Positions 7,901-63,739 of a DNA stretch of 64,000 nucleotides are shown here, piece after piece. The stretch covers positions 64,772,118-64,836,117 of the forward strand of contig CM049317.1 of the NCBI GenBank assembly GCA_026874595.1. Reading direction: 5' to 3'. This stretch comes from Sipunculus nudus. Its lineage: Eukaryota > Annelida > Sipuncula > Golfingiida > Sipunculidae. The notes beneath the pieces were generated by a model. It did no database searches and was not told the DNA's origin. It saw only the letters and a list, made by a program, of their open reading frames with translations. A program made the translations under genes and the position numbers. Position 1 is the stretch's first letter, and each line of letters begins with the position of its first letter.

Positions 7901-9284
7901 CTTCATACACTCAAGCGGGTTGTACAAGTCCATTTTTAGGGTTTACAGAAACAGGTGAACAATAAACGAATTTTGCACTTAATGTTACCGATGAATGCGA
8001 TGAATGCGGGCAATACCGAAAAAAAGTTCTTAATATTGTTATTAAACGGTGACTCATGGTATCAACAAAAACAGTATCAACTGTGTGATTCACTTTATTT
8101 ACACGCAGCACTATGAAATAAATCACATATGTACAACAAAAAGTATGTCGTTGCCGGACCTGGATAAATATGAAACACTGGTTACAAATAAATGTCACAT
8201 AATTAATCTTGAAAGGGCAGTATATACATTTGCATAGGTATGTAAGAAATAATTACTCATAAATCATGTTAATGAGAAATAGCAAAATGATGGACCATTT
8301 TTGCAAACATACCATGTCTGACCAACTGTGTTCTACAAAACGTCGTCAAGGTACAATTAATGTCAATATTGATGTCATATTTTTACCTATTCTTAGACGG
8401 ACATTGGTATTGGGATGATGGGACAGTGATGGAATGGACAAACTGGAAAAACGCTTCGTTCAAACGGTCGAACTATTCCGTGGACAATTACCGTGGTTGT
8501 CTTACATTCGTTAATTATACCGATGGAGTAACTAGTCAATGGGATGCTGAGGACTGCTCCATTGAAAAGATGTTCGTCTGTGAGATATCAGGTATGCTAA
8601 TATGAATGATATTTGCATCGGATTTACAAATGATTCGCTTCCAAACTCAGAGCGAACTTTCTTTATAAAGTACCTGCTTATTGTAGAATTACATTCATAA
8701 AATGTTTACATAATTCAGGAAGTCACATCAAATGTCTAGATTAGGATTTCATTTTTTCAATCAATACGTACTTGCTCGTGGCATATGGAAGTTATTATAA
8801 ACATACCTTAAACTTTTTTTTAAGTTTAAAACAAAATCTCCTATTCTTAGTATAAGAGATTCGGTGTCTCTGTTATACATCCAGCTAACAATGCTTGGAT
8901 GAATATAATAATAAAACTGGTATAGAGTGACTGCACTTTGTCAGACTAAATGTATCTCACGTTAAAGATTTTTTTTAGAGGATTTTTTTACATCAAGCAG
9001 TAAAATATTATGACTCCCCAGGTAAAAAGGAAGAAGACACCACGTCAGCAAAGGAGACCCTTTTGACACCACATCAAATGCCCATGTCAGAAATGGAATC
9101 TGCCACGTCAAAACAGGCAGTATCGGCATCACCACCGAAATCGCTGACATCAACACAGAAACTCCCGACGTCAGACAGCAAACCTAATCGTCAACACAAG
9201 AAACTGTCAGTGGCAGCGGGCGATCCTCCGAAAATGTGTTTTATTGTTTTAGAATCAGATGGGTACAAATTGATTTGTATGTGA
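4986..9284 (+). CDS. Gene A: secreted single-CTLD lectin-like protein, four exons, 246 aa
   Basis: Exons 4986-5046, 5433-5654, 8397-8591 and 9022-9284 join in frame, all introns GT-AG in phase 1. Exon 1 encodes a signal peptide (M-F-W-F-P-R then a hydrophobic core; likely cut after V-Y-S, about residue 23). Exons 2-3 (about residues 24-159) form a C-type lectin-like domain: Cys in R-Q-I-C, V-W-L-S-G-N-D in place of WIG, then G-H-W-Y-W-D-D-G and three further Cys ending F-V-C-E. The QPN seen in genes C and D is absent (N-A-S-F-K-R-S-N instead) and WND reads W-D-A, so Ca-dependent sugar binding is probably lost. Exon 4 is a Ser/Thr/Lys-rich stalk ending M-C-F-I-V-L-E-S-D-G-Y-K-L-I-C-M. No transmembrane segment, so it is predicted secreted. 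The start is set by the signal sequence and by agreement with C and D. Confidence 0.85.
5655..8396. other. Gene A intron 2 (2.7 kb), no inserted gene recognised
   Basis: Intron between the two CTLD exons. It contains poly-A runs (about 5890, 7497) and two overlapping minus-strand frames at 6726-7168 of unknown meaning. Confidence 0.7.
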
Positions 9285-10980: not shown

Positions 10981-11218
10981 TTATGCAATTTTGAAGCAGT
11001 ATTTGTGGCATATTAGTTCGTAGCCATCAGCTTTGGTCACAATGTAACAGTACTTTGGTTGTGGTACCGGAGAAGCGGTTGTTGGTGATGACGCAGTGTC
11101 CAGATCTGTCCTAGGAATTTTCCGTGCAGACGGAACAGCTGTCGCTTCTGACGTAGTCTCTTCCAGCGCTGAGGTAAACACATTGTTGGCTGTCGAAAAG
11201 GTTGACGGGTATGCTTAG
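10981..11218 (-). pseudogene. Orphan B: stalk/tail exon of a CTLD lectin gene
   Basis: The minus strand is open from 11217 to the stop at 10981. It encodes a Thr/Ser/Pro-rich stalk containing F-T-S-A-L-E-E-T-T, shared exactly with gene C, and the family tail K-Y-C-Y-I-V-T-K-A-D-G-Y-E-L-I-C, extended by H-K-Y-C-F-K-I-A. A possible acceptor (CGACAG) lies near 11195. No CTLD exons are found upstream on this strand before gene C, and no signal exon. It is most likely a truncated family member. It could alternatively serve as an alternative last exon of gene C, but gene C has its own intact tail. Confidence 0.6.
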
Positions 11219-14915: not shown

Positions 14916-15563
14916 TTAACCACATTTCAGTTTGTAGCCTTCAGCTTTTGCCACAATGTAACAGTAGTTTGGTTGTGGTATGGGAGTAACGGTTGTTGGT
15001 AATGAGGCATGGTCGCTTTGGTCTGACGGAGTTTTCTGTGATGACGTAACAGCTGTAGCTCTTGACGTAGTCTCTTCCAACGCTGATGTAAACGTCGATC
15101 CATGATCATTCGCATATGTATTGCTCCTTTTCATATAAGTCCTCGTTCGTGTCTCTGCTGGTATATCTGTTGTATATGGAACATCTAAAAACATAATTGG
15201 GCTTGGATAAACATGCAATTTATCAAACTCTTCCGAAATATATTCGTTGAACGATAATTCGCTCTTTTCAGCATTCATGTAGCCGAGATAAGTTGCAATT
15301 TTGAAAAATGAAACACCTAAACCCTCTAATGAAGATACACAATCATATTAAAGTAAGTAACTCACCAGAGGTCTTTTGACAGATAAACAAGAACTCATAT
15401 GTACATGTTTCATCATTCCATTCAGAAGTTGATTCCCCTTGATGATTGAAGAAAAGGAGACAATGTTGATTATTGTTGTAGTTGTTTGGTTGTACAGGAC
15501 TCCTTTTCCTCCAGTTGAACCATACCATATCCGTTCCGTCATCCCACTTCCAATGTCCTTCTG

Positions 15564-21989: not shown

Positions 21990-22440
21990 CCTTGGAGTCT
22001 TTGAACAGACACTCAGACAACAGACAACTCAGGAGCAGCAGAGTTGATACAATTGTGCGGGTGGTTGGGTTGTACAGAAGTTACAGGATGCTGTATGTGT
22101 GTGTCTTGTTGGAGATGATACAGAATGATGTGTGGATTTTTGGATCGTTTAAGGTGACAGGGTAGGATATGCGGCTGTTTGGGTTATCGCAGATATTACA
22201 AGAGGATGTGACGGTGCGTGGGTTGTTTGAGATGATAGAGTAGGATATGCGGGTGCTTGGGTTGTCGGAGATGATATAGGAGGATGTGCCGGTGTTTGGG
22301 TTGTTAAATATGACAGAAGAGGATGTGCGGCAGTTTGCGTTATCGAAGATGAAACAGGATGATGTTCGGGTGTTTGACCTTTCAGATCTGACACGGTAAG
22401 ATGTGTTGTTTTTTTTGTTTGTAAATGCCCTAAGGAGGTA
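21990..22440. repeat. 39-bp minisatellite downstream of gene D
   Basis: About eight units of a GGATGTGxxGGTGTTTGGGT-type 39-bp repeat. Read on the minus strand (within 22081-22512) it is open and gives a 13-residue period such as N-P-N-T-G-T-S-S-Y-I-I-S-D. Openness follows from the unit being a multiple of three. No signal, splice or start evidence supports a protein. Confidence 0.75.
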
Positions 22441-22896
22441 ATTTTGTCCAAATGATCTTTGGAAATCCGTTCCATTTTTCATTTTATTAAGTAATATTAA
22501 GACGACTGCCATTCAAGTACATTAAAAAACTTTTGATCAGTATTAAGGGCATGATAGGTATTAAGAGCATTATCTTTAAATTATTGGAATTATCACTGCC
22601 AATGTAGTGTCATTATATGTCACTATAACTCATTTGGCTCGATTTTGCTGCTATACACTATTCGAACCTGTCAGAAGTAAATATAAACTACGTTTTGCCT
22701 AGTCAGTAGGAATACATGGTACCTAACAAATTAAATGTGTAGTTATAAAGATCACACGAGTGGGAAAACTTCATTATAGGAATAACATGTTTACAATAGT
22801 TGACAATACTTCCTTGACATATATCTAGCATAAATGAATATCTTTATCAGTACAGCGGTTTTTATTCTGTAGTGCACAAAGTCGTAAGTGGACAAT

Positions 22897-22902: not shown

Positions 22903-25900
22903 CATTCGCATATTAGTTTGTAACCGTCAGATTTTGCCACCATGTAACAGTACTTTGGTTTTGGTACCGGAGAAGCGGTTGTTGGTGTTGACGCAGGGAT
23001 GCTTTGTTCTAACGTTTCTTTTGGATTTTTCTGCATTGACGCAACAGTTTTAGCTTCTGGCTGCGTTGAAGTGAACGCCGATTTATGATCATTTGCAAGT
23101 GTGTCGTTGCTTTGTCTATATGTAGTCCGTTGTATCTCTCCTTGTTTCGAAGTTGTATATTGAACATCTAAAACAAATGCGCTTGGATAAACAGGTAATT
23201 CATCAAACTCCTCCGAAATACATTCGTCGAGCTATAATTCGCTCGTATTACATTATAAGATAAATTGCAATTTTAAAAGATGGAAAACATGAACCTTATT
23301 ATGAGAGTTAATAGCAGGAAAAAGCTATTTACACATATTTAAATACCTCACTCACCAGAGGTCCTTTCGCAGATAAACAAGAACTCCACTGAACATGATT
23401 CGTCATTCCATTCATCAGTTGATTCCCCTTGATGGTTGAAGAAAAGGAGACAATCTTGATCATTTTTATAGTTGTTCGGTTGTATAGGACTCTCTTTCCT
23501 CCAGTTGAACCATTGCATATCCGTTCCGTCATCCCATACCCAATGCCCTTCTAATATTAAAAAAAATAGGAACTATTAAAAGATAACCTGGCATTTGTTT
23601 TACGAGGACAAATCTAAAACAGGCGTGGATTAATAAAGAGTGCCAGATGTGAAATAAGGATGAATATAAGGATGACTTCATTTGCAATCCATGTTTATAA
23701 AAAAGAGATATAAATCTTGTTTTGAAATATTGTGATAGTAAAGAGATTGGTCATTGAATTATCTGCGGTTTGTTATTAGCAAAAATACTATTAAAATGTA
23801 TACATCAAAATGATAATATCTCACTCATTTGAATTATTTCGTGAAAACCTTTAAGCAAAATGTAAACATGTTCTGTGATTAATATGTATAAACAATTGAA
23901 TAAAATGATTGGAAATTGTTATGATTGAATATGGATTATCATTTCACGGCATATAACAGTCATGCTGCCATGTGGTGGTAAAATACATCAGCTCGGACGT
24001 ACATTTAAAAAAAAAAACTTAAAGGAACCATGGTTTCTAATTCCATCCCATTCGTAGCGGGTTTACGTGTTCAAAGTTTTATAAGATTAAAATTGTCGCA
24101 TGAGCTTTTCAGGAGCACTTTCACGATATAAAAATGGTGAATTTGAAGTTATTCAACGGTTACAAAATATTTGTTATCAACATTCGTAAAACACAAGGTA
24201 CATATCAAGACAAGTTGAAAAAAACCAGAATAAGCCAGATCCCTACTTCAGTGAATTATTACCGTGGTTACCTGGTGACAAATGAATTGGTCAATATTTG
24301 CCAGCAATACATGCAGAAATTCAAAATACCACCATATGGACATTTTCATTTCAAGCATAACAGAAAGTAATTAAAGCTTTGAAAAGTGTATATGGATCTA
24401 TTTATAGGCACGTGCGGTAAACAGAAAAGTCTTAAATTTATTAAAGGAGAGTAATGCATAATATGTGCATAATTTTTAAAACAAATTCAGGTTTTAAGGA
24501 AAATTTTTAATTTCAAGTTCAACAGCAATTTAACCGAAGAAAAAAATCCATTGATATGAGGTTATCCATGTACCTGTATCAATATCGTTTCCTGAGATCC
24601 TCACTTCATTTGTGCGAACTTCAGTCTGGACTAAATTAAAAACCCACGTGTTTTCCTCCAAATTCTCCAACCTGGCCAATGACCATCCCTTCTCAGCACA
24701 AAACTGTTGTGCCTTAGTGTAGTTTGCCTTGAAGGTGGAAATATAATATTTGCTGTTGCCTCGAGTATAGGGCCCTATGACCTCCGTCGTCCCTCCTAGA
24801 AATAAATTAAAATAATTTCCTCAGTTGATTTTTCTGCATTCATTAGTTGTACATATTTCAAATATCGGGACGAAGTATTATGTTTCCTCTTCATTGCTTA
24901 AGGTTGTTCTATACAGGGTCAAAATTAAACGCGAGAAACTAACCAATAAAATTTGGAGCAATTTTGCATTTCCCTTACATGTTTTTCATTCACAGGATTC
25001 TATGCAATTGTAACTATAACAGTATTTCATTTGCCAGAGTAAGAGTTAATGTCATTAATAATCTATAAGTAATGGTGGTTGCTCCTGGAGCTCACCTGAA
25101 AATCTGGTCGGTCAGTCATAACAAATACAAAAGCTGACCCATTTGACCGCTCCTCTTGAAACCATAGATCGATTATCGCAAAAGGAACCGGTTGATTCTA
25201 TACACATCTTTATCATCCTGACCTTAGTATTGCCACATAATTGTTCTATTTGCACGTGAAAGCTCGACGGGTCACAACATTTAAATGTTGATTAAATGTA
25301 ACAGACAGCGAGTAGAAATATTAGTCAGGTAGAATAAATACTAAATAACTTAAAAGTTGTTGTCTCTCTAGAACATTACCTCAGTTTTAGTGAAACATTA
25401 CTATTTTACACTGAAAATAAAATGCAGCATATATGAGAATGACACAATTTGGTCACATCTATGACATTCTGCTTGATGGATATGTAGTAAATATGATATT
25501 TCAATATTCGCACAGGTTTATAAAAAGTTTTTCAACCTTCGCCCATGAGTTTCCCGACACACTCTTAAACATAATAATCTACGCTACTCTTAAAGGTCAC
25601 ACTAAGCAGGGTTGCCTAAATGACTGCATTCATTGGATTTTGATGTTATGCTATAGTACTCAGGGAATATTGTTACAACATAATACAATCCAGATTGTTT
25701 ACGTGCCAGTCACATTTCGAGTTATGCCTAATAATCTACAGCTTCGTTCGTTTCACGTTACTTGGCATCTCATCATCTGTATAATTGCCTCCGCCAGCAA
25801 GTTATGCGCTCATTCCTGCTTGTGTGTGTTTTTGTATGTGTTTATACAATATAATGTACGCAATCATGAACGCAATGTCATGAAATTTTCAGTGCATTTC

Positions 25901-28680: not shown

Positions 28681-30203
28681 ATATATATAAAATCAAATAC
28701 TTAGTTGTGAAATATGTATTTCCGTACCACGTATACATTTCTCTTTTTAAGCAACTAAATTTTTCCTACACATTTGTTCCAAATTTTTTCCACAATAGCA
28801 GGAAGGGGTTGGAAGTGTTTAAGCCAGCAAATTAAGAGAGTGAATGAGCTAATTTGCATATAACAGCTTAGCAAGATGGTGTAGACACAGACGTTAAGAT
28901 GATCTTTGCGGATCACACTACCCACCTGATTAAGAAGCCTGACAAACAATTGCATCGGTGGTGACATCTAACTATAGCCATGTACACTACTTGTGTTATT
29001 CATTGATTAAGTAATAATGTGATGCACAATAGACAAGACAGTATTATTTTCAGGTTGATGCAGACCATTTGAGCTGATTATTATATACAAATGACAACAT
29101 ATTGAGCGACAATCTCGGTGTGTGAATTGTTCTTACTTTAGTTTTATACCATGAACCGGAACTCTTGGTCCGTCCATTTATTTAAAGCCTGTCATTAGGA
29201 TAATAAAAAAAATTGAGGCCCTGGATATTTAAAGTTGTAAAGATTACAATCTATTCATCATTTAAATATACTCATAATAGAAAAGTATATCCTTTTTAAT
29301 CAAATAAATGACTTAAAACAAATCATTTTGGAGGAAGAGACTGCAGTTCTCATAATTTAAAAGTACAAAAATGTTAAATGTTATGATTTCTTTCTTTTTT
29401 TATACCAATTATTCTCAACGTGTATCTTTTATTTTAACATGGGATCACAATAGATAATAATTCTTACATTTGCTCTATTTTCCAGACATACCTTTTTCAA
29501 TATGGTAGATCACAAATCATAGATCAAGTAAAACATATATAGTATCCAGAATACATAATCAACATTTTAAAGTGTACATTTCCATAAAATAAACTTCAAT
29601 ATAATAATTTTAAAACCAACAATTTAATTAACACCCTCCACATTACTATTATAAACCTTTAACTACCAGTTATTAGTTAACATCTGCAATAAATATACGT
29701 TTTACCATAACCATATATCTTATATAAATAAATATATATCATGAATCTGTTAATTATAAACATAATAAGAACAGCTGTTTGTTTAAATGTGTGTTTTGTA
29801 ACATGCTAGGAAAAATTTAATGAAACCATGATTATTCGCAATTAATTTACCCACCATATATCCCATAATACACTGTTTAATTATCGGACAAAGAAACATC
29901 ATTTGAGATAAATGCTGTCCTACATAAACATAAAGTAATCTGGTTTTGTCAGTGTAACCATTAACTTCGTTCTAAATGCGTTTATTCAGCTTTGTAATTA
30001 TTGCCATAATAGACTGGTTAATTAGATTATTTAACTGTGTTCGTTTTGTGCCAGTATTAATATTAAGGGAGCAAATCCCTAATACATAAAGGTTCAGGCT
30101 TTTGGTAAGGTTACTCGTCCTCGTGTAATCATACAGCACCCTGGAACCATACATTTTAACAGTCACAGGCATCAACATAATACCTCATTATGTACGGCAT
30201 ACA

Positions 30204-30264
30204 ATGAATGAAGCTGTAGTATTTCTGATGGGCGTTCTCTGTTTATGTCGAAATGAAGACGCAG
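30204..30264 (+). pseudogene. Orphan signal-peptide exon of a G-type CTLD receptor
   Basis: ATG at 30204 opens M-N-E-A-V-V-F-L-M-G-V-L-C-L-C-R-N-E-D-A and ends G|GTATGT (phase 1 donor), matching gene G exon 1. The exon itself is intact, unlike that of F, but has no downstream exons of its own. It could in principle splice to F's exon 2 at 43126, more than 12 kb away, bypassing F's broken first exon. Confidence 0.7.
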
Positions 30265-30556
30265 GTATGTTACTGATGTTAGTTATGTAACGCTAAAGAT
30301 GCAATTCCCATGTACGACCAATGATACATTACATTGAAGTCAGTTTTCATTTTAATGCATATATATCTCGCATTTTGACATTAACAGAAATAAAAAGTAA
30401 AAGATGATTCAGCTCAACATACATTTAAGCACAATTTGACTTACCTATGCCAACAGAAGCTTATAGCTGCCATACACTGTAAATATCATAGATATAGCAA
30501 ACATTTGTAATTATACAAGCAAGACTGGGTTCAGTGACAACCATTATATATATATA

Positions 30557-31569
30557 CAGTAGAGCGCCGTTTTTCCGAAAGCGTCGGGGGACAAGCTTTT
30601 TGTTCGTAAATACGAACATTCGGAAATGCGGACAAGGGTCTAGCAGCAAGTTCTTACTACAGCTAATGATAAACTTAATACCATTTTACCCGAGGGAGAC
30701 GGTGTTTCTTTTCGATCTTCGTAATCGACGACCAGACCATATAAAAGATATTGGATTTATTGCTGAGCATAATTGGCAAAGATCTGTCTGACCTTCTTTT
30801 AGGATACGTGCGTGCCCTTCTTACATCATATTCACCGAAGGGAAAGGTCAAATGAAAACGCCTTTGGTAAAGCTCTGTTAGTTTCTTTAATAACCATCTT
30901 TAATAGCCAGCATAACGCCGTCTGTTTTCTTTTCTTTGACTCTTTATCTCTGGTAAGTGACAGCAGGAGGATTGTGTTATAGTTGTGTTCTTCTTGACAG
31001 TAAAAGTAAATGATGAATAAGCTGAATAACAGCGAGTTTAAGTAGATGACACAAATGCTCTTGGGATTGAACTGCTCATTTGTATGGCCAGGCCCGCAGG
31101 CTGTTACCTCGTACCTCAACATGCTCGAGCTCAAGCGTTTAATGAATGATACCACACCAATGCTGATGCGAGTAAAGTGCTCAGTTATTTAGCCTGACAT
31201 CCTATCCCAGGCCGACGAACTATGCCTGCTTGAGTACAAACGAGATGTGGTTAATAACACACAAGTGCTCTTAGATAAACTGCTCAGTCGCTTGCTAGGG
31301 GTAGAGGGAGCTGAGCGTTTCGGGGCTAGCTGTAGTTTTCACACCTTTGCCCCGGCGACAAGATCGGCCCATAACTAATTAATTAGGGTCACCACTGGGC
31401 TTAATCACAAGACTGCAGACCTTGTGACTCGAAATTACAAATATTCATTTTAGGTATTTACATACTTGAAATATATTTCGGAAATACGAATAAATTTTCG
31501 GTTCCCCATTTTAATTTTCAGAGAAACGGATTTTCGGAAATTCGCATTCGGAAATACGGCGCTCTACTG
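30557..31569. mobile_element. Pogo-like nonautonomous DNA transposon, copy 1 (1013 bp)
   Basis: Ends CAGTAGAGCGCCG(T)TTTTCCGAA on the left and the inverted complement on the right (22 of 23 matching). TA lies on both sides, as expected for a Tc1/mariner/pogo-type TA target duplication. The termini resemble pogo/Tigger-type ends. Inside I see no transposase; frames such as the minus-strand one at 30832-31155 have no recognisable domain. Same element at the same site in F (41797-42798); absent from G. Confidence 0.75.

Positions 31570-31654
<85 letters not shown>
31570..31654. repeat. (TA)n microsatellite at the duplication breakpoint
   Basis: A long TA run, in which homology between this copy and the F locus ends. 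Confidence 0.9.
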
Positions 31655-36189: not shown

Positions 36190-37230
36190 AATTTACACAT
36201 TACCACTTGGTGAATTAGTACGACAGCATGGAATGAATTATCATTTTTATGCTGATGACAGTCAAATTTACGTATCATTTAAACCAGAATCAAAGGTTCC
36301 TATTTCTACCATTGAAAACATACTTGCATGACATAGGTGTTTGGATGTGTCAGAATCTGCTTAAACTCAATGCTGTTAAAACTGAGGTTCCGATTATCGG
36401 TACAAACCAGCAGAGGTAAAAAATTCAGTTGAAAACTCTTAACATATTTGACTCTGTAGTTGTGCCAACAGACAGTGCTAGAAACCTGGTGGTAGTGTTT
36501 GACCAAGGACTTTGTCTTGACAAGCATGTAAATAATATTTGTCGTTTGGCTTTTTACCACCTGCGTAATATAGCTAGGATAAAGAGTTTCCTAACTCAAG
36601 ATTCACTAATCACATTAATTCTTGCGTTCATCAGTTCAAGGATTGACTGTTCCAACTTTTTGCTATGTGGTCTTCCTAGCAAGTTACTGGACCGGCTACA
36701 GAGAGTGCAGAATGCAGCTGCTAGGCTTGAAGCTGGTGCCAAGAAGCGCGACCACATTACCCCAATACTTAAAGAACTCTATTGGCTCCCGGTGCGACAG
36801 CGCATTGATTTTAAAATTTTATTATTAGTATATAAAGCCATAAATGGTGAATCGCCTATTTACATTAGGAACCTCTTAACCTTTATGTTCCAGTCAGGCA
36901 GCTTAGGTCATCTGACCAAGGGCTTTTAGTGATCCCTAAAGCCCGAAGTGAGATGTGTCGTTTGAGAGCTTTCTCAGCTGTGGCACCAAGGTTGTGGAAT
37001 GAACTTCCGCACTCAATCAGAACTTCACCATCTTTAGCTTCTTTTAAAAAGAAATCTCAATACATACCTTTTTATATTAACTTTTGGTAGTTCTTAGAAA
37101 TTAGGGTTTTCTTTTAGGAATCTTTGCTTTAGTAGGAATCTACATTTTATGTTTAAGTAAAACTATGCTTTGTGTGTTGTAAAGTGCTTTTGATAACTAT
37201 TTTGTTGAATTAGCGCTATATAAATTAAAT
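36190..37230 (+). pseudogene. Non-LTR retrotransposon 3' end (reverse transcriptase C-terminal part), frame-broken
   Basis: Plus strand, read across several frames. Near 36240 is F-Y-A-D-D, the RT catalytic motif, in N-Y-H-F-Y-A-D-D-S-Q-I-Y. A stop follows at about 36329. The 36429-36929 frame then gives typical RT C-terminal sequence: D-R-L-Q-R-V-Q-N-A-A-A-R-L, then D-H-I-T-P-I-L-K-E-L-Y-W-L-P-V and K-I-L-L-L-V-Y-K-A-I-N-G. From 36930 another frame continues V-P-K-A-R-S-E-M-like to L-W-N-E-L-P. The 3' end GCGCTATATAAATTAAATATTATTATT matches CR1/L2-type tails. 5'-truncated and dead. Confidence 0.8.
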
Positions 37231-39960: not shown

Positions 39961-41796
39961 TTCCTAAGGACTCTTCACCATATTCATAATTTGTTTGCAC
40001 TCTGGCAGTCATTTTGCTCATTGTTCAACACTCCTTGAATTCAGCTGAGCGTCTTGGCCCATGGGCCACTTGTTCACAATTATCTCTACATAAAACAAAC
40101 TTGGCAAACAAGTGGCCATTGTTTATCCTCCTTGGATATGAATATGAAGTACTTGCATTTGCAATTGCATCGGTGGTGACATCTTACTATAGCCATGTAC
40201 ACTACTTGTGTAATTCACTGATTAAGTATTAATGTGATGCACAATAGACAAGACAGTATTATTTTCAGGTTGATGCAGACCATTTGAGCTGATTATTATA
40301 TACAAATGACAGCATATTGAGAGACAATCTCGGTGTGTGAATTGTTCTTACTTTAGTTTAATACCATGAACCGGAACTCTTGGTCCGTCCGTTTATTTAA
40401 AGCCTGTCATTAGGATAATAAAAAAAAGTTGAGGCCCTGGATATTTAAAGTTGTAATGATAACAATCTATTCATCATTTAAATATACTCATAATAGAAAA
40501 GTATATCCTTTTTAATCAAATAAATGACTTAAAACAAATCATTTTGGAGGAAGAGACTGCAGTTCTCATAATTTAAAAGTACAAAAATGTTAAATGTTAT
40601 GATTTCTTTCTTTTTTTTATACCAATCATTCTCAACGGGTATCTTTTATTTTAACATGGGACCACAATAGATAATAATTCTTACATTTGCTCTATTTTCC
40701 AGACATACCTTTTTCAATATGGTGGATCACAAATCATAGATCAAGTAAACATATATAGTATCCAGAATACATACTCAACATTTTAAAGTGTACATTTCCA
40801 TAAAATAAACTTCATATTAAAATTTTTTAAATTAACATTTTAATTAACACCCTCCACATTACTATTATAAACCTTTAACTACCAGTTATTAGTTAACATC
40901 TGCAATAAATATACGTTTTACCATAACCATATCTCTTATATTAATAAATATTTATCATGAATCGGTTAATTATAAACATAATAAGAACAGCTATTTGTTT
41001 GAATGTGTGTTTTGTAACATGCTTGGAAAAATGAAATGAAACCATGATTATTCGCAATTAATTTACCCACCATATATCCCATAATACACTATTTAATTAT
41101 CGGACAAAGAAACATCATTTGAGATAAATGCTGTCCTACATAAACATAAAGTAATCGGGTTTTGTCAGTGTAACCATTAACTTCGTGCTTAATGCGTTTA
41201 TTCAGCTTTGTAATTATTGCCATAATAGACTGGTTAATTAGATTATTCAACTGTGTGTTTAGCTTCGTTTTGTGCAAGTATTAATATAAAGGGAGCAAAT
41301 CCCTAATACATAAAGGTTCAGGCTTTTGGTAAGGTTACTCGTCCTTGTGTAATCATACAGCACCCTGGAACCTTACATTTTAACAGTCACAGGCATCAAC
41401 ATAATATCTCTTTGTGTACGGCATACAATGAATGAAATTGTAGTATTTCTGATGGGCGTTCTCTGTTCTCTGTCGAAGTGAAGGCGCAGGTATGTTACTC
41501 ATGTTAGTTATGTAACGCTAAAGATCCAATTCCCATGTTCGACCAATGATACATTACACTGAAGTCAGTTTTCACTTTAATGCATATATATCTCGCATTT
41601 TGGCATTAACAGTAATAAAAAGTAAAAGATGATTCAGCTCAACATACATTTAAGCACAATTTGACTTACCTATGCCAACAGAAGCTTATACCCCATATAC
41701 ATACAGCTGCCATACACTGTAAATATCATAGATATAGCAAACATTTGTAATTATACAAGCAAGACTGGGTTCAGTGACAACCATTATATATATATA

Positions 41797-42795
41797 CAGT
41801 AGAGCGCCGTTTTTCCGAAAGCGTCGGGGGACAAGGTTTTTGTTCGTAAATACGAACATTCTGAAATGCGGACAAGGGTCTAGCAGCAAGTTCTTACTAC
41901 AGCTAAGGATTAACTTAATACCATTTTACCCGAGGAAGACGGCTTTTCTTTTCGATCTTCGTAATCGACGACCAGAACATATAAAAGATATTGGATTTAT
42001 TGCTGAGCATAATTGGCTAAGATCTGTCTGACCTTCTTTTAGGATACGTGAGTGCCCTTCTTACATCATATTCACCGAAGGGAAAGGTCAAATGAAAACG
42101 CCATTGGTGAAGCTCTGTTAGTTTCTTTAATAGCCATCTTTAATAGCCAGCATAAGGCCGTCCGTTTTCTTTTCTTTGACTCCATATCTCTGGTAAGTGA
42201 CAGCAGGACGATCGTGTGATAGTTGTGTTCTTCTTGACAGTAATAGTAAATGATGAATAAGCTGAATAACAGCGAGTTTAAGTAGATGACACAAATGCTC
42301 TTGGGATTGAACTGCTCATTGTATGGCCAGGCCCGCAGGCTGTGGCCTCGCACCTCAACATGCTCGAGCTCAGGCGTTTAATGAATGATACCACACCCAT
42401 GCTGATGCTCAGTTATTTGGCCTGACATCCTATCCCAGGCCGACGAACTATGCCTGCTTGAGTACAAACGAGATGTGGTTGATAACACACAAGTGCTCTT
42501 AGATAAACTGCTCAGTCGCTTGCTAGGGGTAGAGGGAGCTGAGCGTTTCGGGGCTAGCTGTAGTTTTCACACCTTTGCCCCGGCGACAAGATCGGCCCAT
42601 AACTAATTAATTAGGGTCACCACTGGGCTTAAACACAAGACTGCAGGCCTTGTGACTCGTAATTACAAATATTCATTTTAGGTATATACATACTTGAAAT
42701 ATATTTCGGAAATACGAATAAATTTTCGGTTCCCCATTTTAATTTTCAGAGAAACGAATTTTCGGAAATTCGGCATTCGGAAATACGGCGCTCTA

Positions 42796-42798
<3 letters not shown>
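41797..42798. mobile_element. Pogo-like nonautonomous DNA transposon, copy 2 (1002 bp)
   Basis: Same termini, TA flanks and insertion site as 30557-31569, with small indels. It lies in intron 1 of pseudogene F. Confidence 0.75.
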
Positions 42799-42857
<59 letters not shown>

Positions 42858-42893
42858 GTGTGTGTGAGAGGGTGTGTGTGTGTGTGTGTAGTG
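42799..42893. repeat. (TA)n then (GT)n microsatellite
   Basis: A TA run to about 42853, followed by GT repeats. Confidence 0.9.
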
Positions 42894-44499
42894 TATTGAT
42901 CACCCCGCATTGAATCAACATTCCTTACACGTACCGAGGAGGGTTCCCTGGATTATATATCAATTGATATCCGAAAAAGATACTCATTTGATAACAATAG
43001 AATAGAACCTTTTATTTTTTGCAGTCATTTATACATGTGTTAACAGAAAATAGTTTTCGATAATATTATAAATTTGTCCCTTAAACTCTGACTTTGAACT
43101 AACTATATATATATTTTTACGTCAGAACTGCCTTTGCAACATTTAACTAATAACATGACCAGAAGAGAAGCGGATGAATTTTGCAGTTCACGAAACGGAA
43201 CACTTCCTGGTGAGGTCAGCATGTCCTGGTTACAGAAACTGCAGATTCTGCATCCATTCAATCTATCCTACCAGGATTCTTTCATCTGGACAACTTTGAA
43301 TAGAATTCAGTTTGATGTGTGGAAAACAACATATGGGAAGTTTTCTGGTATGTGAACAAATATTCTTGCAAGAAACTTACCTCACGCTGAGATAGACCAA
43401 AGTATTGATATAATTTATAATCAGTAATACTAATTTATTCTACTTGACAAATTTCTCTCGCAGATACAAGCATTGATCAAGGAACACGTGAGGATAATAA
43501 CTGTGGTGCTTTCTGGATATCTAGCGCTGTCCACCATGGTATAAAGTTGCCTAACTGCCTTTCCCAACTTCATAATTACGTGTGCCATTATCCAGGTAAA
43601 ATTTGCCAAACATGTTCATTGTGTTAACAGAAACCGGTACAGGTGGCTATAACCTATTCTTAATGATTAACTGTGATGACTGAATTTATATTACCGAATC
43701 ATCAGTCTAACCTTTTCATCTGTAATGTTAAGGTCCGTTTCATTCATTTACCGCGAGACCCTAAATTCTGAACTAATATAAGATTTCAGAAGTATCGTTT
43801 ATGTAATAACTTTGAGACAAGATCGGATTTAAGACCGCTGCAAAGGAAATGTTTTAATTTTTCGATGATTTCTTTCTATGAAGGAAGACATTTATGCTCA
43901 TAGGTTATTCTTAATTAGATTATCACCGTTGGTCACATGGTATTCAGGTGTTTAGGAATTATATTTTCAGTTTGTAATAGGTGTCCGAATTGGAACTGTA
44001 TTATGATAGGAAAACAACGGTGCGTTAAACTTGAATTTGGAAATATCAACTGGTTCCCGGCCAGGGTAGAGTGCAACGAAAAAGGCGGTGATCTCTGGGT
44101 TCCCAAAGCCAGAGAAACTAAAGCAGTAAAAACACTGATGTCATCACAGTCATCACCTGTAAATGAAGCCTGGATAGGCTTGTACAAGGAAAATTGGGTT
44201 TACAAAATATCCTATAAAAGTAATTAATTCCAATGTTTACATGTGTTATAGATATCCATATATGAAATGTCTCATAAAGGAATAAAAAAATGTCAGACGG
44301 CTTAATTTTATAACGTAATTTTTATGGTTTCTTGGGAGTAGAACAAAAGAAAATGTAGGTTTTGTAAAATAAATAAACAAAGTAGGTCTTACTATACGTT
44401 GTATTGTGATGTAGACTGAGCTTGTCTGTTTACGTTGGTACTATTTTTTCTTTTACTTCTTACTTTTCTTTTTACTTTGGTTCTAATTCTTCTTTTACT

Positions 44500-44590
44500 T
44501 AATATAAATATAAATCTATTGAAAATATTAATCTTAAACGTGAGAGGTTTACCTCATATAATAGCAGGTTATAGCTTAAAAATTCCCTGA
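44500..44590 (+). pseudogene. Remnant of a non-LTR endonuclease start (in F)
   Basis: Reads L-L-K-I-L-I-L-N-V-R-G-L-P-H, like the I-L-T-L-N-V-R-G-F start of the endonuclease at 56687. Present at the same place in gene G (62240-62335), so the insertion predates the F/G duplication. Confidence 0.4.
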
Positions 44591-44909
44591 TACCCTTTTG
44601 TTTCGATACACTTGCATAAATTATCACATTTCTGGGAACTCTTTATGTGTAAATTACCAATAGTTATTTAAGACATTTGCTTTGTTAAAAAAAAAGTAAT
44701 ATTAACATTTTTTTCGAAGGTAACTTTTTCTTAATTTAAGATTTCGAGTCTTCATATGAAATAAAAGGAAAACATAGCAAATAAGCCTGCATGTCAGGCG
44801 TAGATATATGATCACTTTTATATATGAAAATATCAACTATATTTGCTAGACTATTTTTGGTAAGATTTGTTTCCCGTCTACTGCTTAGAGCTTAGTACGG
44901 TGATTACAG

Positions 44910-44972
44910 ATGTTTCCCGACCTGCGACAGTTTCGATGAGAACCCAGTCTTCATTTGTAGAATTGCTCAGAG
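44910..44972 (+). other. Possible stalk exon (63 bp) in F; donor lost in G
   Basis: Acceptor GATTACAG then 63 bases open in phase 1 (D-V-S-R-P-A-T-V-S-M-R-T-Q-S-S-F-V-E-L-L-R) then donor G|GTACCT. In gene G the same segment (62662-62724) ends G|ATACCT, with no GT. Length and phase allow skipping without a frameshift. Unproven. Confidence 0.3.
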
Positions 44973-46450
44973 GTACCTTCACATTTCCATTCATTTTATA
45001 TAATTTTGCATGCTAGGATTAACACACAAAAATTCATTGCATACATTTAGACCTCCTATGCTTTTTATAACTCGTAGGAACGTACCTGTTTTATATGTCT
45101 TGAAATTATCCAACAAATACTCAAACCGAATCCTGTAAGATGTGTATGTTCTGATAAAAATTCCATCCATACTGGTTATGCTGTCAGTGATCTTATTTTC
45201 ATCTTAAAATTAAGAGATGGCTATATTTTAATAACAAAATATACCTGATAGTTTCAATGTCACTTATCCTATTTTAATAGCGGTTTAAATGGTAGATGTG
45301 GTAAGTAAGTTTGTGTGGTATTTCACATTTTAGTACAGAACACATATACTACATTTTTGGAGCCGGTTCCGTGGTTTCGCTTCTCTTAGGCTTTCTGATT
45401 GGTGCCTTAAGTCAGAGAAAAAATGGAAAACCAATAAATCAGTAAGAATTTTCCCTAAATAATTTAAATTCTGATTGTGTACTCTATTTTATCGCTTATT
45501 CATACACCTGTGGAGTCATACGGTGAATATATAATTATTAACAGAATCATTTTCTTTACAAATGCAATTAATCTTGATTCAAACATTTCTAATATCGGAG
45601 TATATGGAATAATGCGTGATGTGATCCTTTTTTCTGGACTCTAATGTGTTCAATTATGGTAACTCAAGTATTTTAATATAACTTAACAAGGCGAGACGAC
45701 AAGATGAAAGAAGGGGACACAACACACACAGAGACTGCTCATACAAGCTTATTTACCGAGGCGAGCTATTATGCCGAAATCAAAAGTAATAAAAGAAACA
45801 TGGATCCATACCCTCAGAAGCAGAATGAAACAGATATTGGCGATGTCGGATTAAGATTTGATAATACTGCATCAGATGATCTACCGTTTCCTGCCCACTG
45901 TTACTATGCAGTAGCTCAAGCGGATCTACCCTCGACTGAACGAACCAGCGGTACTTATGAAGCTGTTTGGAATAGTTTCTCTCAGGTATAAGGAAATGCA
46001 TCAAACATCCACGCGAGGACGTATACCTTAAAACTATACGTTACAGGTTAAAAAAATAACTATTCAGAATCATGGACTAGTGTCTCTAAGAATTCAATGC
46101 ATACCAGCCCGAGTTGTGATATATATATACAGCTATGAAGTGGATGCATAATGCTGATTCCAGAAATGATATATTCCTGGTAAAACCTTTGTGTCATTTA
46201 TCATGCTCATATCCTTATCCAATATACCCGGAGAGTTTTTTTTTCAATTTTTTTCCCAAACTGCTCCATTATGATAAAAAAATGAGCATTCGTATCTAAC
46301 TCATAAGAATGGCAAACATGATGTGCGTTATATTAGAACCTGAATGATATGCCCTTTTGTATAAAATAAATGAGTTCTATATATTGTAAATAATGGTCAC
46401 GGTTTTTATAGAGTATTTCCAATATTTATTTTTTATATAATTTCTACATA

Positions 46451-47852: not shown

Positions 47853-48824
47853 ATATTACCTTTATCGGTTTTATAAGCATAATCGTTCCAATATTGGAAA
47901 TACAACTAGTGATTAAGTGTCACCATATGTCACTGTCACTAAAGCCCAGTTCGCCTGATGTTGCTGCCGTACAACATTCAATACTGTCAGAACTACATTT
48001 GAACTACAATGATTTCGCCTAGTCAGCTAGACCACATAGAACTTGACAAACGTAAGTGGTTATTAAGGTTACACGATTGGAGAAACTTCTTCTCGAATAA
48101 GATGATTGCAACAGTTTACAATACTTCTTTGAAGCATATCTGGCATTAAAGGATATTTTGAACAATACAGCTTTTTATATGGTGCATATTAAACAAAAAG
48201 CGAAAAGATTAATTTAGTCGCATATCATTTTGTATCCATCAGAGTTTGCCACAGCGTAGCAGTACATTGGTTGACGGACTGGAGAGACAGTTGTTGGTGG
48301 TGGCGCAGGGTCGCTTTTGTGTGACATAGGAATTTTGTGTGATGACGTAAATGCCGATTCATTCTTACTTGCATATGAAGTCGTTTGCATCTCTGCATGA
48401 ATTTTTATCTCAGTTGTATATTGAACATCTAATATATAATGCTCTTGAATAGAGTCCATCGACATACATTCGTTGAGAAAAAAATTCGCTTCATTAAGTA
48501 TCCGCGAAGCCGAGACAAATAGCAGTATTTTAATATGAGACACCTGAACCCTTTTAAGGAATCTTAAAGTAGGAAACTTTTATATATATACATATTTAAA
48601 TGACTAACTCACCAGGTGTCCTTTCACAGATGAACAAGAGTCCGTTTGAACATGTTCGACCATTCCATTCAGCAGTTTATTCCCCTTGATAATTGGAGAA
48701 AAGGAGAAAATGTTGATTATTTTTTAGGTTGTTTGGTTGTACAGGACTCTTTTTTTTTCTTCCGTTGAACCATACCACATCCGTTCCGTCATCCCAAACC
48801 CAAGTTCATCTGAATCACACACAC

Positions 48825-56313: not shown

Positions 56314-56686
56314 TTTAAATGGCACAGTTGAATAACACTTATGTGCACTCGGTAAACCCGGTCCACGCATAATAAACACAGTAGGACTTGTTTTATGTAA
56401 ATAGCCACTGCCGGGGCCCATACTGGACATGTGTGCCTTTTCTGCATGTTACACACGCAGCTTGCTAAGGTGTACTGGGGTGCAGAGTTTATTTGTATTT
56501 ATGTGAAGTGGTGTTATGTGAAACCCTGTTTGATTATCTAAATTATTTAGGTTACTTTGCTATAAAATACTTGTTTATAATACTAAGACTTTTACCTGAT
56601 TTCCCAAATAGAAAAAAATGTATTAATATACCTGGACAATTTAGACTGTTGTAAAGCGTATAGAAAAAAAGAGAATTTATATTCAT

Positions 56687-57390
56687 ATGTCAGATATAGT
56701 AATACTTACTTTAAATGTTAGAGGGTTTGCAAATTATAACAAAAGAACAGAGCTTTTTTATTGGTTAAATAACAGAACTGATCAGCTGATATTCCTACAA
56801 GAAACCCACAGTACCAAAATGGATGAAGCGTTATGGCGAGTTGAATGGGAGAAAAAATTGTTTTTGCTCACGGGAAATCAAATGCCAGAGGAGTATGTCT
56901 GTTAATTAAAAATTTTGTAGGAGCAGAAATTCATGAAACTATGGTAGATGAAAATGGACGTTTTATTGTATGCGATATAACGTTAGGGGATCATAGAGTA
57001 ACTTTGTCTGTCATATATGGTCAGAATAGTGATGATCCAATCTTCTTTAAAAATGTGATAGAAAAAATTAAGGGATTATTAAATGATTAATTAGTTATTA
57101 AATATTAATTTAGTTATGGACAACGAAAAAGATCAGTTTGGAAGTCAGAATATAACCCATACACATTCTAGAGCCATTTTAAAAGAATGGTGTAATGGGT
57201 TCGATATGATAGGTATTTGGAGGCATTATCATCACCAGGAAAGAGAAGTTACATGGAGCAGAAATAAACCCTATAATATTTAAAGTAGACTTGATTACTT
57301 TCTAGTTTCAAAATGTTCGTCATATTGTACAGAACAAGGACAGATTCAAAATAGTTATAAAAGCGATCAGTTTTCTGTCCAAATTACACA
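56687..57390 (+). pseudogene. Non-LTR (L1/Tx1-like) ORF2 endonuclease domain, frame-broken and truncated
   Basis: ATG at 56687 gives M-S-D-I-V-I-L-T-L-N-V-R-G, then I-F-L-Q-E-T-H-S, classic APE-type endonuclease motifs. A frameshift near 56870 continues in 56845-57090 with N-A-R-G-V-C-L-L-I and V-T-L-S-V-I-Y-G. A third frame from about 57110 gives D-N-E-K-D, T-W-S-R-N-K-P and S-R-L-D-Y-F-L-V-S, ending near S-D-Q-F-S-V. No reverse transcriptase follows: the element is cut off at about 57395. Confidence 0.8.
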
Positions 57391-59055: not shown

Positions 59056-59493
59056 TTAATCTGTTAATTATAAACATAACTGTTTATAACAAACAGCTGT
59101 CTGAATGTGTGTTGTGTAACATGCTGGGAGAATGAAACCATGATTATTAATAAATTTACCCACCAACTATCCCATAAAACACTATTTATCGGACCAAGAA
59201 ACATCATTCGAGGTAAATGCTGTCCTGCATAAACATATTTATCCGGGTTTTGTCAGTGTAACCATTAACCAATGTGTTTATTCAGCTTTGTAGTGATTGC
59301 AACAATACACTGGGGAATTAGTATAATTAATTGTGCGTTTGGCTTCATTTTGTGCCAGTATTAATATTAAGGAAGCAAATCCCTAATTTTGATTAGGTTA
59401 CTTGTCCATATGTAATCATACAGCTTCCCGAAACCTTACATTTTACCAGTCTCAGGCATCAAGACCTCTATGTGGACGGCATACAATCTCAGA

Positions 59494-59866
59494 ATGAATA
59501 GAAAAATGGAAGTATATCTGATGGGCGTTCTTTGTTTATGTCGAAATGAAGGCGCAGGTATGTTACTCATGTTAGTTATGTAACGCTTAAGATCCAATTC
59601 CCATGTACGACCAATGATAAATTATATTGAAGTCTGCAAAAATTTTTCACTATAATGCATACTTATCTAGCACTTTAACATTAACAGAAATATAAAGTAA
59701 AAGGTGACTCAGCTCAACTTGCATTTAAGCACAATTTGACTTACCTATGCCAACAGAAGCTTATACCCCCTAGTTACAACTGCTAACACTGCAAATATCA
59801 TACATACAGTAAACATTTGTAGTTATACAAGCAAGACCTGGTCCAGTGATAGCCATTATATACATG

Positions 59867-59927
<61 letters not shown>

Positions 59928-62900
59928 ATTGTATTGATCACCCTTGCATTGAATCAACATTCCTTACACGTACCGAGAACGGTACTTTGGTTTATATATC
60001 AATTGGCTACATACTGAGGCATTTCCTCGGAAAAAAGATACTCACTTGATAACAATAGAATAGAATTCGAACACCTTTTATTTTTCGAAGTCATTTATAC
60101 ATGTTTTAAAAGAACAGACTTTGAACTAACTATATGCATTTTTTACGTCAGAACCGCCTTTGCAACATTTAACTAATAAAATGACCAGAAGAGAAGCAGA
60201 TGAATTTTGCAGTTCACAAAACGGAACACTTCCTGGTGAGGTCAGCATGTCCTGGTTACAGAACCTTCAGATTCTGCATCCATTCAATCTATCCTACCAG
60301 GATTCTTACATCTGGACAGCTTTGAATAGAATTCAGTTTGAAGTATGGCAAACAACATATGGGAAGTTATCTGGTATGTGAACAAATATTCTTGCAAGAC
60401 ACTTACCTCACGCTGAGATACACCATACATATAAGAAGTATCAAAACATTACGTGATGCATTAATTTCTAGGGTTAAATCAATCATTGCGAACCACCGGT
60501 GGGATTAACTAGTAAAATTATCTCGTCCTTTGCAAAATATTGATATAATTTATAATCAGTAATACTAAAGTATCATACTCGACAAGTTTCTCTCGCAGAT
60601 ACAAGCATGGAACAAGGAACACGTGAGGATAAAAACTGTGGTGCGTTCAGGATATCTAACGCTGTCCAAAATGATATAAAGTCGCCTAACTGCCTCACCC
60701 AACTTCATAACTACATTTGCCATTATCCAGGTAAAATTTGCCAAACATGTTCATTGTGTAAACTGAAACCGCTAAAGGTGGCTATAACCAATTCTTAATG
60801 ATTAACTGTTATGACGGAATTTAGATGACCGAATTATGAAATTTTGCAGTTGGTTTCTACCTTTTTCTTCTGTAATGTTAAGGTCCGTTTCGTTCATTTA
60901 CCGCGAGACCCCAAATTCTGAACTAATATAAGATTTCAGAACTATCATTTATGAAATAACTTTGAGACAACATCGGATTTAAGACCACTGCAAGGGAATC
61001 GTTTTGATTTTTTGGTAATTTCTTTCTATGAAGGGAGACATTTGTCCTCATAGGTTATTCTTAATTAGATTATCACCGTTGGTCATATGGTATTATGGTG
61101 ATTAGGAATTATATTTTCAGTTTGTGATAGGTGTCCGAATTGGAACTGTATTATGATAGGAAAACAACCTTGCGTTAAACTTGAATTTGGAAATATCAAC
61201 TGGTTCCAGGCCAGGATAGAGTGCAAAGAAAAGGGTGGTGATCTCTGGGTTCCAAAAGCCAGAGAAACTAAACCAGTGAAAACACTGATGTCATCACAGT
61301 CATCACCTGTGAATGAAGCCTGGATAGGCTTGTACAAGGAAAATTGGGTTTACAAAATACCCTATAAAAGTAATAAATTTCAATGTTTACACGTGTTATA
61401 GATATCAATATATGATATTCCTCATAAAGGAATAAAAATTGTTGATAGAAATTATATAAAAAAATATGCCCATCTTCTCTCGGTTAGATTATTTCAATTA
61501 TCACATAAATATAACCATGGGAAAGAACACTAATTTTGCTAAAACGTGGACATGGTAATCAGTCGTGGGAATGGTTACACAACATGAGAAATGTTTATTG
61601 CATATTTAAGTAAGAAAGCAAATATAGAGGAATGAAGAATATGACGAAATGCAGCATTTTAGTAAAGTTACAATGTTAATTTGTCAACATTGCAGGAGAT
61701 CAGCGTGTTAAGGACTTTCGATTTACCGGTGATGCAGCAGGGGCTCAAGGGAATTGTGCTGTACTAAATCTGAACACTTTAACATGGAGCAGAATAGGCT
61801 GCAATGCAAGGGCTGCTGCACTGTGTTTAGTCTTTGACTCAAATAATACATCAGGTAAAACATGTTTTAACTGCGCATGCTTGCTAATTGTATTGTTATT
61901 CTGAAAATATAAATTACAAATACATGGCATACACAAATAAGACCTGCAATATATTAACACAGTAACATATAAGTGAATAAATAATATACCAGGACAAAAA
62001 GAATACATGTATGACACTTACGTAGAAAACCTTAAAAATGTCAGACGGCTTAATTTTATAATGTAATTTTTATGGTTTCTTGGGAGTAGAACAAAAGAAA
62101 AATGAAGGTTAAAATAAATAAACAAAGTTGGTCTTACTATACGTTGTATTATGATGTAGACTTAGCTTGTCTGTTTACGTTGGTACTATTTTTTCTTTTA
62201 CTTCTTACTTTTCTTTTTACTTTGGTTCCAATTCTTCTTTTACTTAATATAAATATAAATCTATTGAAAATATTAATCTTAAACGTGAGAGGTTTACCTC
62301 ATATAATAGCAGGTTATAGCTTAAAAATTCCCTGATACCCTTTTGTTTCGATACACTTGCATAAATTATCACATTTCTGGGAACTCTTTATGTGTAAATT
62401 ACCAATAGTTATTTAAGACATTTGCTTTGTTTAAAAAAAACCAGTAACATTAACATTTTTTTTCGACGGTAACTTTTTCTTAATTTAAGATTTCGAGTCT
62501 TCATATGAAATAAAAGGAAAACATAGCAAATATGCCTGCATGTCAGGCGTAGATATATGATCACTTTTATATATGACAAATATCAACTATATTTGGTAGA
62601 CTATTTTTGGTAAGATTTGTTTCCCGTCTACTGCTTATAGAGCTTAGTACGGTGATTACAGATGTTTCCCGACCTGCGACAGTTTCGATGAGAACCCAGT
62701 CTTCATTTGTAGAATTGCTCAGAGATACCTTCACATTTTCATTCATTTTATATAATTTTGCATGCTAGGATTAACACACAAAAATTCATTGCATACATTT
62801 AGACCTCCTATGCGTTTTATAACTCGTAGGAACGTACCTGTATATGTCTTGAAATTATCTAACAAATACTCAAGCCGAATCCTGTAAGATGTGTATGTTC

Positions 62901-63739
62901 TGATAAAAATTCCATCCATACTGGTTATGCTGTCAGTGATCTTATTTTCATCTTACAATTAAGAGATGGCTATTTTTTAATAACAAAATATACCTGATGG
63001 TTTCAATGCAACTTCTCCTATTTTAATAGCGGTTTAAATGGAAGACGTGGTTGGTAAGTTAGTGCGGTATTTCACATTTTTGTACAGAACACATATACTA
63101 CATTTTTGGAGCCGGTTCCGTGGTTTCGCTTCTCTTAGGCTTTCTGATTGGGGCCTTATGTCAGAGAAAAAATGGAAAACCAATAAATCAGTAAGAATTT
63201 TCCCTAAATATTTTAAATTCTGATTGTGTACTCTACTTTATCGCTTATTTATACACCTGTGGAGTCATACGGTGAATATATAATTATTAACAGAATCATT
63301 TTCTTTACAAATGCAATTATTCTTGATTCAGACATTTCTAATATCGGAGTATATGGAATAATGCGTGTGTGATCCTTTTTTCTGGACTCTAATGTGTTCA
63401 ATTATGGTAACTCAAGTATTTTAATATAACTTAACAAGGCGAGACGACAAGATGAGAGAAGGGGACACAACACACACAGAGACTGCTCATACAAGCTTAT
63501 TTACCGAGGCGAGCTATTATGCCGAAATCAACAGTAATAAAAGAAACATGGATGCATACCTTCAGAAGCAGAATGAAACAGATATTGGCGATGTCGGATT
63601 AAGATTTGATAATACTGCATCAGATGATCTACCGTTTCCTGCCCACTGTTACTATGCAGTAGCTCAAGCGGATGTACCCTCGACTGAACGAACCAGCGGT
63701 ACTTATGAAGCTGTTTGGAATAGTTTCTCTCAGGTATAA
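59494..63739 (+). CDS. Gene G: tandem-CTLD type I membrane receptor with ITIM-like tail, seven exons, 409 aa
   Basis: Exons 59494-59557, 60152-60373, 60599-60730, 61121-61369, 61696-61854, 63088-63190 and 63439-63739 join in one frame, all GT-AG, phase 1 except the last intron (phase 2). Residues 1-22: signal peptide (V-Y-L-M-G-V-L-C-L-C); a second in-frame ATG at 59506 could be the true start. About 23-139: degenerate CTLD (R-R-E-A-D-E-F-C, K-N-C-G-A-F, P-N-C, Y-I-C). About 140-275: second CTLD with a canonical W-I-G (A-W-I-G-L-Y-K-E), G-N-C, W-S-R-I-G-C, A-L-C. Neither has EPN/QPD or WND, so Ca/sugar binding is doubtful and protein ligands are likelier. About 278-300: one transmembrane helix (G-A-G-S-V-V-S-L-L-L-G-F-L-I-G-A-L) then Q-R-K. 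The 105-residue tail holds S-Y-Y-A-E-I (ITIM-like), C-Y-Y-A-V-A and T-Y-E-A-V. Confidence 0.83.
62240..62335 (+). pseudogene. Remnant of a non-LTR endonuclease start (in gene G intron 5)
   Basis: Same L-I-L-N-V-R-G-L reading as at 44500-44590, in the intron between the second CTLD and the transmembrane exon. Confidence 0.4.
63512..63529 (+). other. ITIM-like motif S-Y-Y-A-E-I in gene G tail
   Basis: Fits the consensus [SILV]-x-Y-x-x-[ILV] with the second Tyr as the phospho-acceptor. It lies about 20 residues after the last transmembrane exon and is identical in pseudogene F. Such motifs recruit SH2-domain phosphatases in known receptors; function here is inferred. Confidence 0.5.

Follow-up and report, generated by a model that had tools for sequence, protein, structure and literature searches.

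The window analysed here, a stretch of 64,000 nucleotides of Sipunculus nudus DNA, contains within a lectin gene cluster a gene, named R2 (59494-63739, plus strand), that looks like a real animal gene for a cell-surface receptor. Read from the sequence alone, R2 would encode two C-type lectin-like domains (CTLDs), a transmembrane helix and a cytoplasmic tail with tyrosine motifs; the observation is sound and the receptor architecture well founded. The reading we prefer, although we consider it an even call, is that R2 is a type I cell-surface receptor with phosphotyrosine signalling of some kind; surface location, phosphorylation, SH2 binding and an immune role are all predicted in it.

The R2 gene and its predicted domains

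The gene model comprises seven exons:

59494..59557, plus strand: exon 1, start codon and putative signal peptide (joined frame, hydropathy)
60152..60373, plus strand: exon 2, first part of CTLD1 (joined frame, Pfam)
60599..60730, plus strand: exon 3, last part of CTLD1 (joined frame, Pfam)
61121..61369, plus strand: exon 4, first part of CTLD2, with extra N-terminal cysteines (joined frame, Pfam, structure-sequence match)
61696..61854, plus strand: exon 5, last part of CTLD2 (joined frame, Pfam)
63088..63190, plus strand: exon 6, transmembrane helix and stop-transfer residues (joined frame, hydropathy, hydrophobic-exon scan)
63439..63739, plus strand: exon 7, cytoplasmic tail and stop codon (joined frame)

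GT donors and AG acceptors border all seven exons. The joined exons form 1230 bases encoding 409 residues and a stop, the final codon being the only stop; none of 20,000 random sets of equal-length pieces taken from the window gave an open join. The clean seven-exon frame proposed in an earlier sequence-only reading is thus confirmed. Introns 1 to 5 are in phase 1, which is frequent around extracellular modules, and the last intron is in phase 2. A second in-frame ATG lies upstream of exon 1, at 59470.

As judged by hydropathy only, the N-terminus has a short hydrophobic core of about 11 residues (EVYLMGVLCLC), which makes the putative signal peptide plausible, not proven. The highest 19-residue hydropathy window of the protein covers residues 281-299 (mean 2.23) and is directly followed by the basic stop-transfer sequence CQRKNGK, in agreement with the transmembrane helix proposed earlier. 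A stretch of intron 5 (62166-62313) is more hydrophobic than exon 6; it was rejected as a transmembrane exon and read as a LINE remnant. Reading frames that we take to be LINE endonuclease-like (ILxLNVRG) are present at 56645-57283 and 62255-62320 (plus strand), and the second of them, in intron 5, mimics a transmembrane exon in the hydropathy scan. Another frame (36420-36926, plus strand) resembles a non-LTR reverse transcriptase in its C-terminal region; its first 150 residues had no match in NCBIfam. No Rfam match at gathering scores was obtained in the whole window.

Pfam detected only Lectin_C in the R2 protein (E = 8.2e-13), in two stretches. Taken separately, CTLD1 (matched residues 31-137) scored 25.4 bits and CTLD2 (matched residues 165-266) 35.8 bits, both above the gathering cut-off of 22.6 bits (residue numbers are converted from the split pieces); the two CTLDs of the sequence-only reading were therefore recovered by profile search. 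NCBIfam gave a weak polycystin match (E = 1.5e-5, 21.6 bits for a cut-off of 1861), which we take to reflect a CTLD common to polycystin-1 and R2. In a sequence search of solved structures, CTLD2 matched C-type lectin-like domains, the best being Reg IV (E = 0.0015). CTLD1 alone matched no CTLD in this search, the two matches at E up to 10 being unrelated proteins; its assignment therefore depends on the Pfam score and on the cysteine pattern, a point that counts against the signalling receptor. Each domain contains four canonical cysteines (C41, C109, C127, C136 and C174, C243, C258, C266), whose pairing is predicted, and extra N-terminal cysteines such as those of exon 4 are typical of long-form CTLDs.

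The description of both CTLDs as degenerate proved accurate: direct reading found neither EPN/QPN/QPD-type nor WND sugar-binding motifs in either domain, whereas the neighbouring single-CTLD genes G_B and G_C retain QPN and WND. An alignment of five domains (the two of R2 and those of G_A, G_B and G_C) has no more than five invariant columns, with a poor fit in the C-terminal half of each R2 domain; motif absence was therefore judged by reading rather than from alignment columns. Because the canonical motifs are missing, calcium-dependent sugar binding by R2 appears unlikely, and the ligand is more likely a protein or a calcium-independent glycan.

Tyrosine motifs in the cytoplasmic tail

The R2 tail has 109 residues and six tyrosines, three of them in YxxPhi motifs (tail motif scan):

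63512..63529, plus strand: SYYAEI (Y337), YxxPhi and sole match to the strict ITIM consensus
63644..63661, plus strand: HCYYAV (Y381), YxxPhi, not a strict ITIM
63698..63715, plus strand: GTYEAV (Y399), YxxPhi, neither a strict ITIM nor an ITSM

The motifs S-Y-Y-A-E-I, C-Y-Y-A-V-A and T-Y-E-A-V noted previously are all present, but the last two are not strict ITIMs: the consensus scored, [SIVL]xYxx[IVL], was matched at one of the six tyrosines. When the tail was shuffled 100,000 times, 10.9% of the shuffles contained one or more strict ITIMs, 5.3% three or more YxxPhi, and 1.7% both features. The term ITIM-type tail is thus accurate only in part, there being one strict ITIM among three YxxPhi, and chance produces a strict ITIM in 11% of shuffles. 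No match to the ITSM consensus, TxYxx[VI], was found in the tail. An ITAM reads YxxL/I-x(6-12)-YxxL/I; the YxxPhi motifs are spaced by 40 residues (first to second) and 14 residues (second to third), therefore the tail contains no ITAM. The one Pfam match of the tail was to stem cell factor, weak and below cut-off (E = 0.2). The tail fits both phosphotyrosine signalling and AP-2 sorting, and is suggestive, not diagnostic.

Phosphotyrosine signalling is favoured by the open seven-exon frame, by the scores of both CTLDs, by the transmembrane segment with its basic stop-transfer sequence, and by the joint occurrence of three YxxPhi and a strict ITIM. Under this hypothesis, the two tandem CTLDs would bind a protein or a non-canonical glycan without calcium, and the single helix would anchor R2 in the membrane. 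A Src-type kinase would phosphorylate Y337, Y381 and Y399, and the phosphorylated tyrosines would recruit SH2 proteins and change cell behaviour, by inhibition or by activation. The main rival, which we hold to be doubtful, is an endocytic or scavenger receptor in which the three motifs would be AP-2 sorting signals and phosphorylation unnecessary. All three motifs fit YxxPhi, and type I receptors with tandem CTLDs are known to act in endocytosis, but SYYAEI also fits the strict ITIM consensus and would thus suit SH2 ligands as well.

Two more specific readings are both cases of phosphotyrosine signalling, and our confidence in them overlaps with that given to signalling as a whole. SYYAEI could act as an ITIM, recruit an SHP-type phosphatase and damp blood-cell activation; its match to the consensus and the two further YxxV motifs in the tail point this way, but a single strict ITIM arises by chance in 11% of shuffles and pYAEI would also suit Src-family SH2 domains, and we regard an inhibitory R2 as unlikely. 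Furthermore, the oyster counterparts are reported as activating: according to the parts of the articles available, CgCLec-HTM and CgCLec-TM1 are transmembrane CTLD receptors with a hemITAM in the tail that bind Syk and drive ERK and IL-17 (PMC13027682, PMC12842671). These receptors support tyrosine signalling by R2 in general. An activating receptor like CgCLec-HTM, with the tail tyrosines forming a Syk-binding hemITAM or atypical ITAM, would account for the C-terminal helix topology and tyrosine tail that R2 shares with CgCLec-HTM as partly accessible reviews describe it. We nevertheless judge such a receptor improbable, as the YxxPhi spacing is unfit for an ITAM and the comparison is by description only.

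Broken copies of R2 and neighbouring lectin genes

Two partial copies of R2 are present in the window:

41428..45991, plus strand: R1, a broken R2 paralogue (BLAST, alignment)
30204..30264, plus strand: R0, a lone exon 1 copy with an open frame (similarity search)

R1 contains copies of exons 1, 2, 3, 4, 6 and 7. Its exon 1 has a frameshift, not found in R0, that leads into a stop. Its exon 5 is gone, about 598 bases being deleted there, and a short A-rich match is seen by reading at both deletion ends. No further receptor exons were found near R0. R0 lies in the first copy of a 2.7-kb segmental duplication (28947-31624 and 40162-42853, 95% identical) that carries the receptor 5' flank and exon 1. 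Relative to R2, intron 1 of R1 has an insertion of about 1.0 kb (41797-42798) that starts with CAGTAGAGCGCCG and ends in its inverted complement. It is like a DNA transposon with terminal inverted repeats, and we take it to resemble pogo/Tigger elements.

In 150-column windows with gaps excluded, the stretch between the 5' flank and exon 4 is 83-95% identical in R1 and R2, and the stretch that begins in intron 5 and runs into the 3' flank 94-100% (exon 6, 98.1%; exon 7, 98.3%). With gaps counted, as BLAST does, the 5' pieces are 79-90% identical and the 3' block, which extends to the window end, is 96.4% identical. The step in identity coincides with the R1 deletion. We infer that R1 acquired a younger 3' half resembling that of R2 by recombination and is thus a mosaic; an unmerged haplotype in the assembly may also lie behind the two copies.

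The selection test used exons 2, 3, 4, 6 and 7, exon 1 being dropped for its frameshift and exon 5 being absent from R1. By the NG86 method dN was 0.044 and dS 0.069, from 33.5 nonsynonymous changes in 790 sites and 13.5 synonymous changes in 203 sites, so that purifying selection between R1 and R2 was not significant (Fisher p = 0.14), as expected if R1 is decaying. Exon 3 is the most divergent (dN 0.12); among the longer exons with any synonymous change, the lowest dN/dS is that of exon 4 (0.036/0.137). R1 retains all three YxxPhi motifs, which at 98% nucleotide identity is little informative, and all five differences in exon 7 are nonsynonymous. The state of R1, the sole tailed paralogue, the lack of a purifying signal and the exon 7 differences count against a signalling receptor. 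The first two of these also favour the idea that R2 itself is silent or decaying, one more copy in a cluster that turns over, its open frame merely unbroken so far. The single exon of R0 and the stops in the neighbouring gene G_D point the same way, but R2 has all seven exons intact, together with their splice sites and its eight canonical CTLD cysteines, and we find this explanation quite improbable.

When pieces of the window were used as search seeds, at least four single-CTLD genes and one orphan exon came up; they are listed with five sites of a shared tail signature:

About 4986-9284, plus strand: G_A, single-CTLD gene (Lectin_C 50.2 bits)
About 18065-14916, minus strand: G_B, single-CTLD gene (Lectin_C 69.3 bits)
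Exons within 24820-22902, minus strand: G_C, single-CTLD gene (similarity only)
Within 50539-48214, minus strand: G_D, single-CTLD gene (similarity only)
Within 11214-10984, minus strand: orphan tail exon (similarity)
9237-9278, plus strand: tail signature
14922-14963, minus strand: tail signature
22908-22949, minus strand: tail signature
48220-48261, minus strand: tail signature
11008-11049, minus strand: tail signature

The CTLD exon of G_D carries in-frame stops. The hydrophobic-exon scan that recovers exon 6 of R2 gave no candidate AG..GT exon between CTLD and tail in any of G_A, G_B, G_C and G_D. The sequence-only reading had placed R2 next to secreted lectins, and the lack of a transmembrane exon makes this a fair description of the intact neighbours, which would be secreted. 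The five tail exons share the signature C-[YF]-[IMA]-V-x-x-[SA]-[DE]-G-Y-[KE]-[LM]-[IK]-C, preceded by a poorly conserved Ser/Thr-rich sequence; four of them stop one residue past it and the orphan exon continues. A relation between these tails and that of R2, considered because R2 has CYYAVAQAD, was not supported by local alignment: the score was reached by 106 (G_A), 307 (G_B), 43 (G_C) and 127 (G_D) of 1000 shuffles, in a test that covered these four tails. Just downstream of G_C, an open minus-strand frame with Pro/Thr/Ser-rich repeats (22084-22512) contains a tandem repeat (22113-22376) with a 78-base (39-base) unit.

These features would also suit an invertebrate cluster resembling the NK-receptor loci of vertebrates, in which receptors are made from CTLDs that have lost sugar binding, helix and tail halves are homogenised by sequence exchange while ligand halves diverge, and signalling runs through a true ITIM, the solution having arisen independently in the form of a type I protein with tandem CTLDs; we hold this to be very improbable.

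Relatives of R2 and comparison with known receptors

The full R2 protein matched nothing at E up to 1 among 5.8 billion proteins (1594 candidates shared words), and for the CTLD part of G_B (3 candidates) there was no match at E up to 1e-5; six R2 peptide patterns had no match in viral contigs. The searched collections are taken to be poor in animal sequences, therefore missing relatives say little on novelty. The signalling reading is weakened by the fact that these searches returned no relative with which to gauge conservation of the tail motifs.

NKG2A, Ly49, DCIR and MICL combine a CTLD with an ITIM tail; they are mostly type II proteins with a single CTLD and an N-terminal ITIM, and their SHP binding is demonstrated. 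The parallel drawn earlier with such vertebrate receptors holds for the pairing of a CTLD with an ITIM-like tail, a likeness of layout only, since R2 would be type I with two CTLDs. The mannose-receptor family has in common with R2 the type I orientation predicted for it, tandem CTLDs and a tyrosine-based motif in the tail, which in that family is an uptake signal. Its members differ by their eight or ten CTLDs and by cysteine-rich and fibronectin II domains; in R2 Pfam sees Lectin_C alone, in two CTLDs. The CD94/NKR-P1-related receptor of the tunicate Botryllus is, judging by the title of the report, a blood-cell receptor of the CTLD kind in an invertebrate. It is a type II protein with one CTLD, unlike R2.

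The few signalling CTLD receptors described in molluscs are activating according to the available parts of the literature; if expressed and phosphorylated, R2 would join them as a receptor with two CTLDs and an ITIM-like tail. A real inhibitory partner, if this were true, would suggest that an animal can evolve its own activating and inhibitory lectin-like receptors although it lacks NK cells. The mosaic, broken R1 beside R2 shows how such a cluster turns over.

Bivalve repertoires of C-type lectins are highly expanded, according to the part of the source available (PMC10140915). In the accessible portions of the articles, CgCLec-HTM of Crassostrea gigas has one CTLD with QPS/WHD motifs (PMC12842671, PMC13027682), and ScCTL-1 of Sinonovacula constricta has four CTLDs (d1-d4) and a C-terminal transmembrane helix (PMC12842671). 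Compared by these descriptions only, CgCLec-HTM resembles R2 in its extracellular CTLD, its helix near the C-terminus and the tyrosine motif in its tail, but has one CTLD and a hemITAM where R2 has two motif-less CTLDs, one ITIM-like motif and two YxxV. ScCTL-1 is similar to R2 in having several CTLDs and a C-terminal transmembrane domain, and differs by its four CTLDs and by a description that, as far as available, mentions no tyrosine tail. In the titles and opening abstract lines of the literature matches listed, no mollusc two-CTLD receptor with an ITIM is described. In conclusion, R2 fits the known kind of mollusc CTLD receptors, from whose descriptions it is set apart by its two motif-less CTLDs and its ITIM-like tail.
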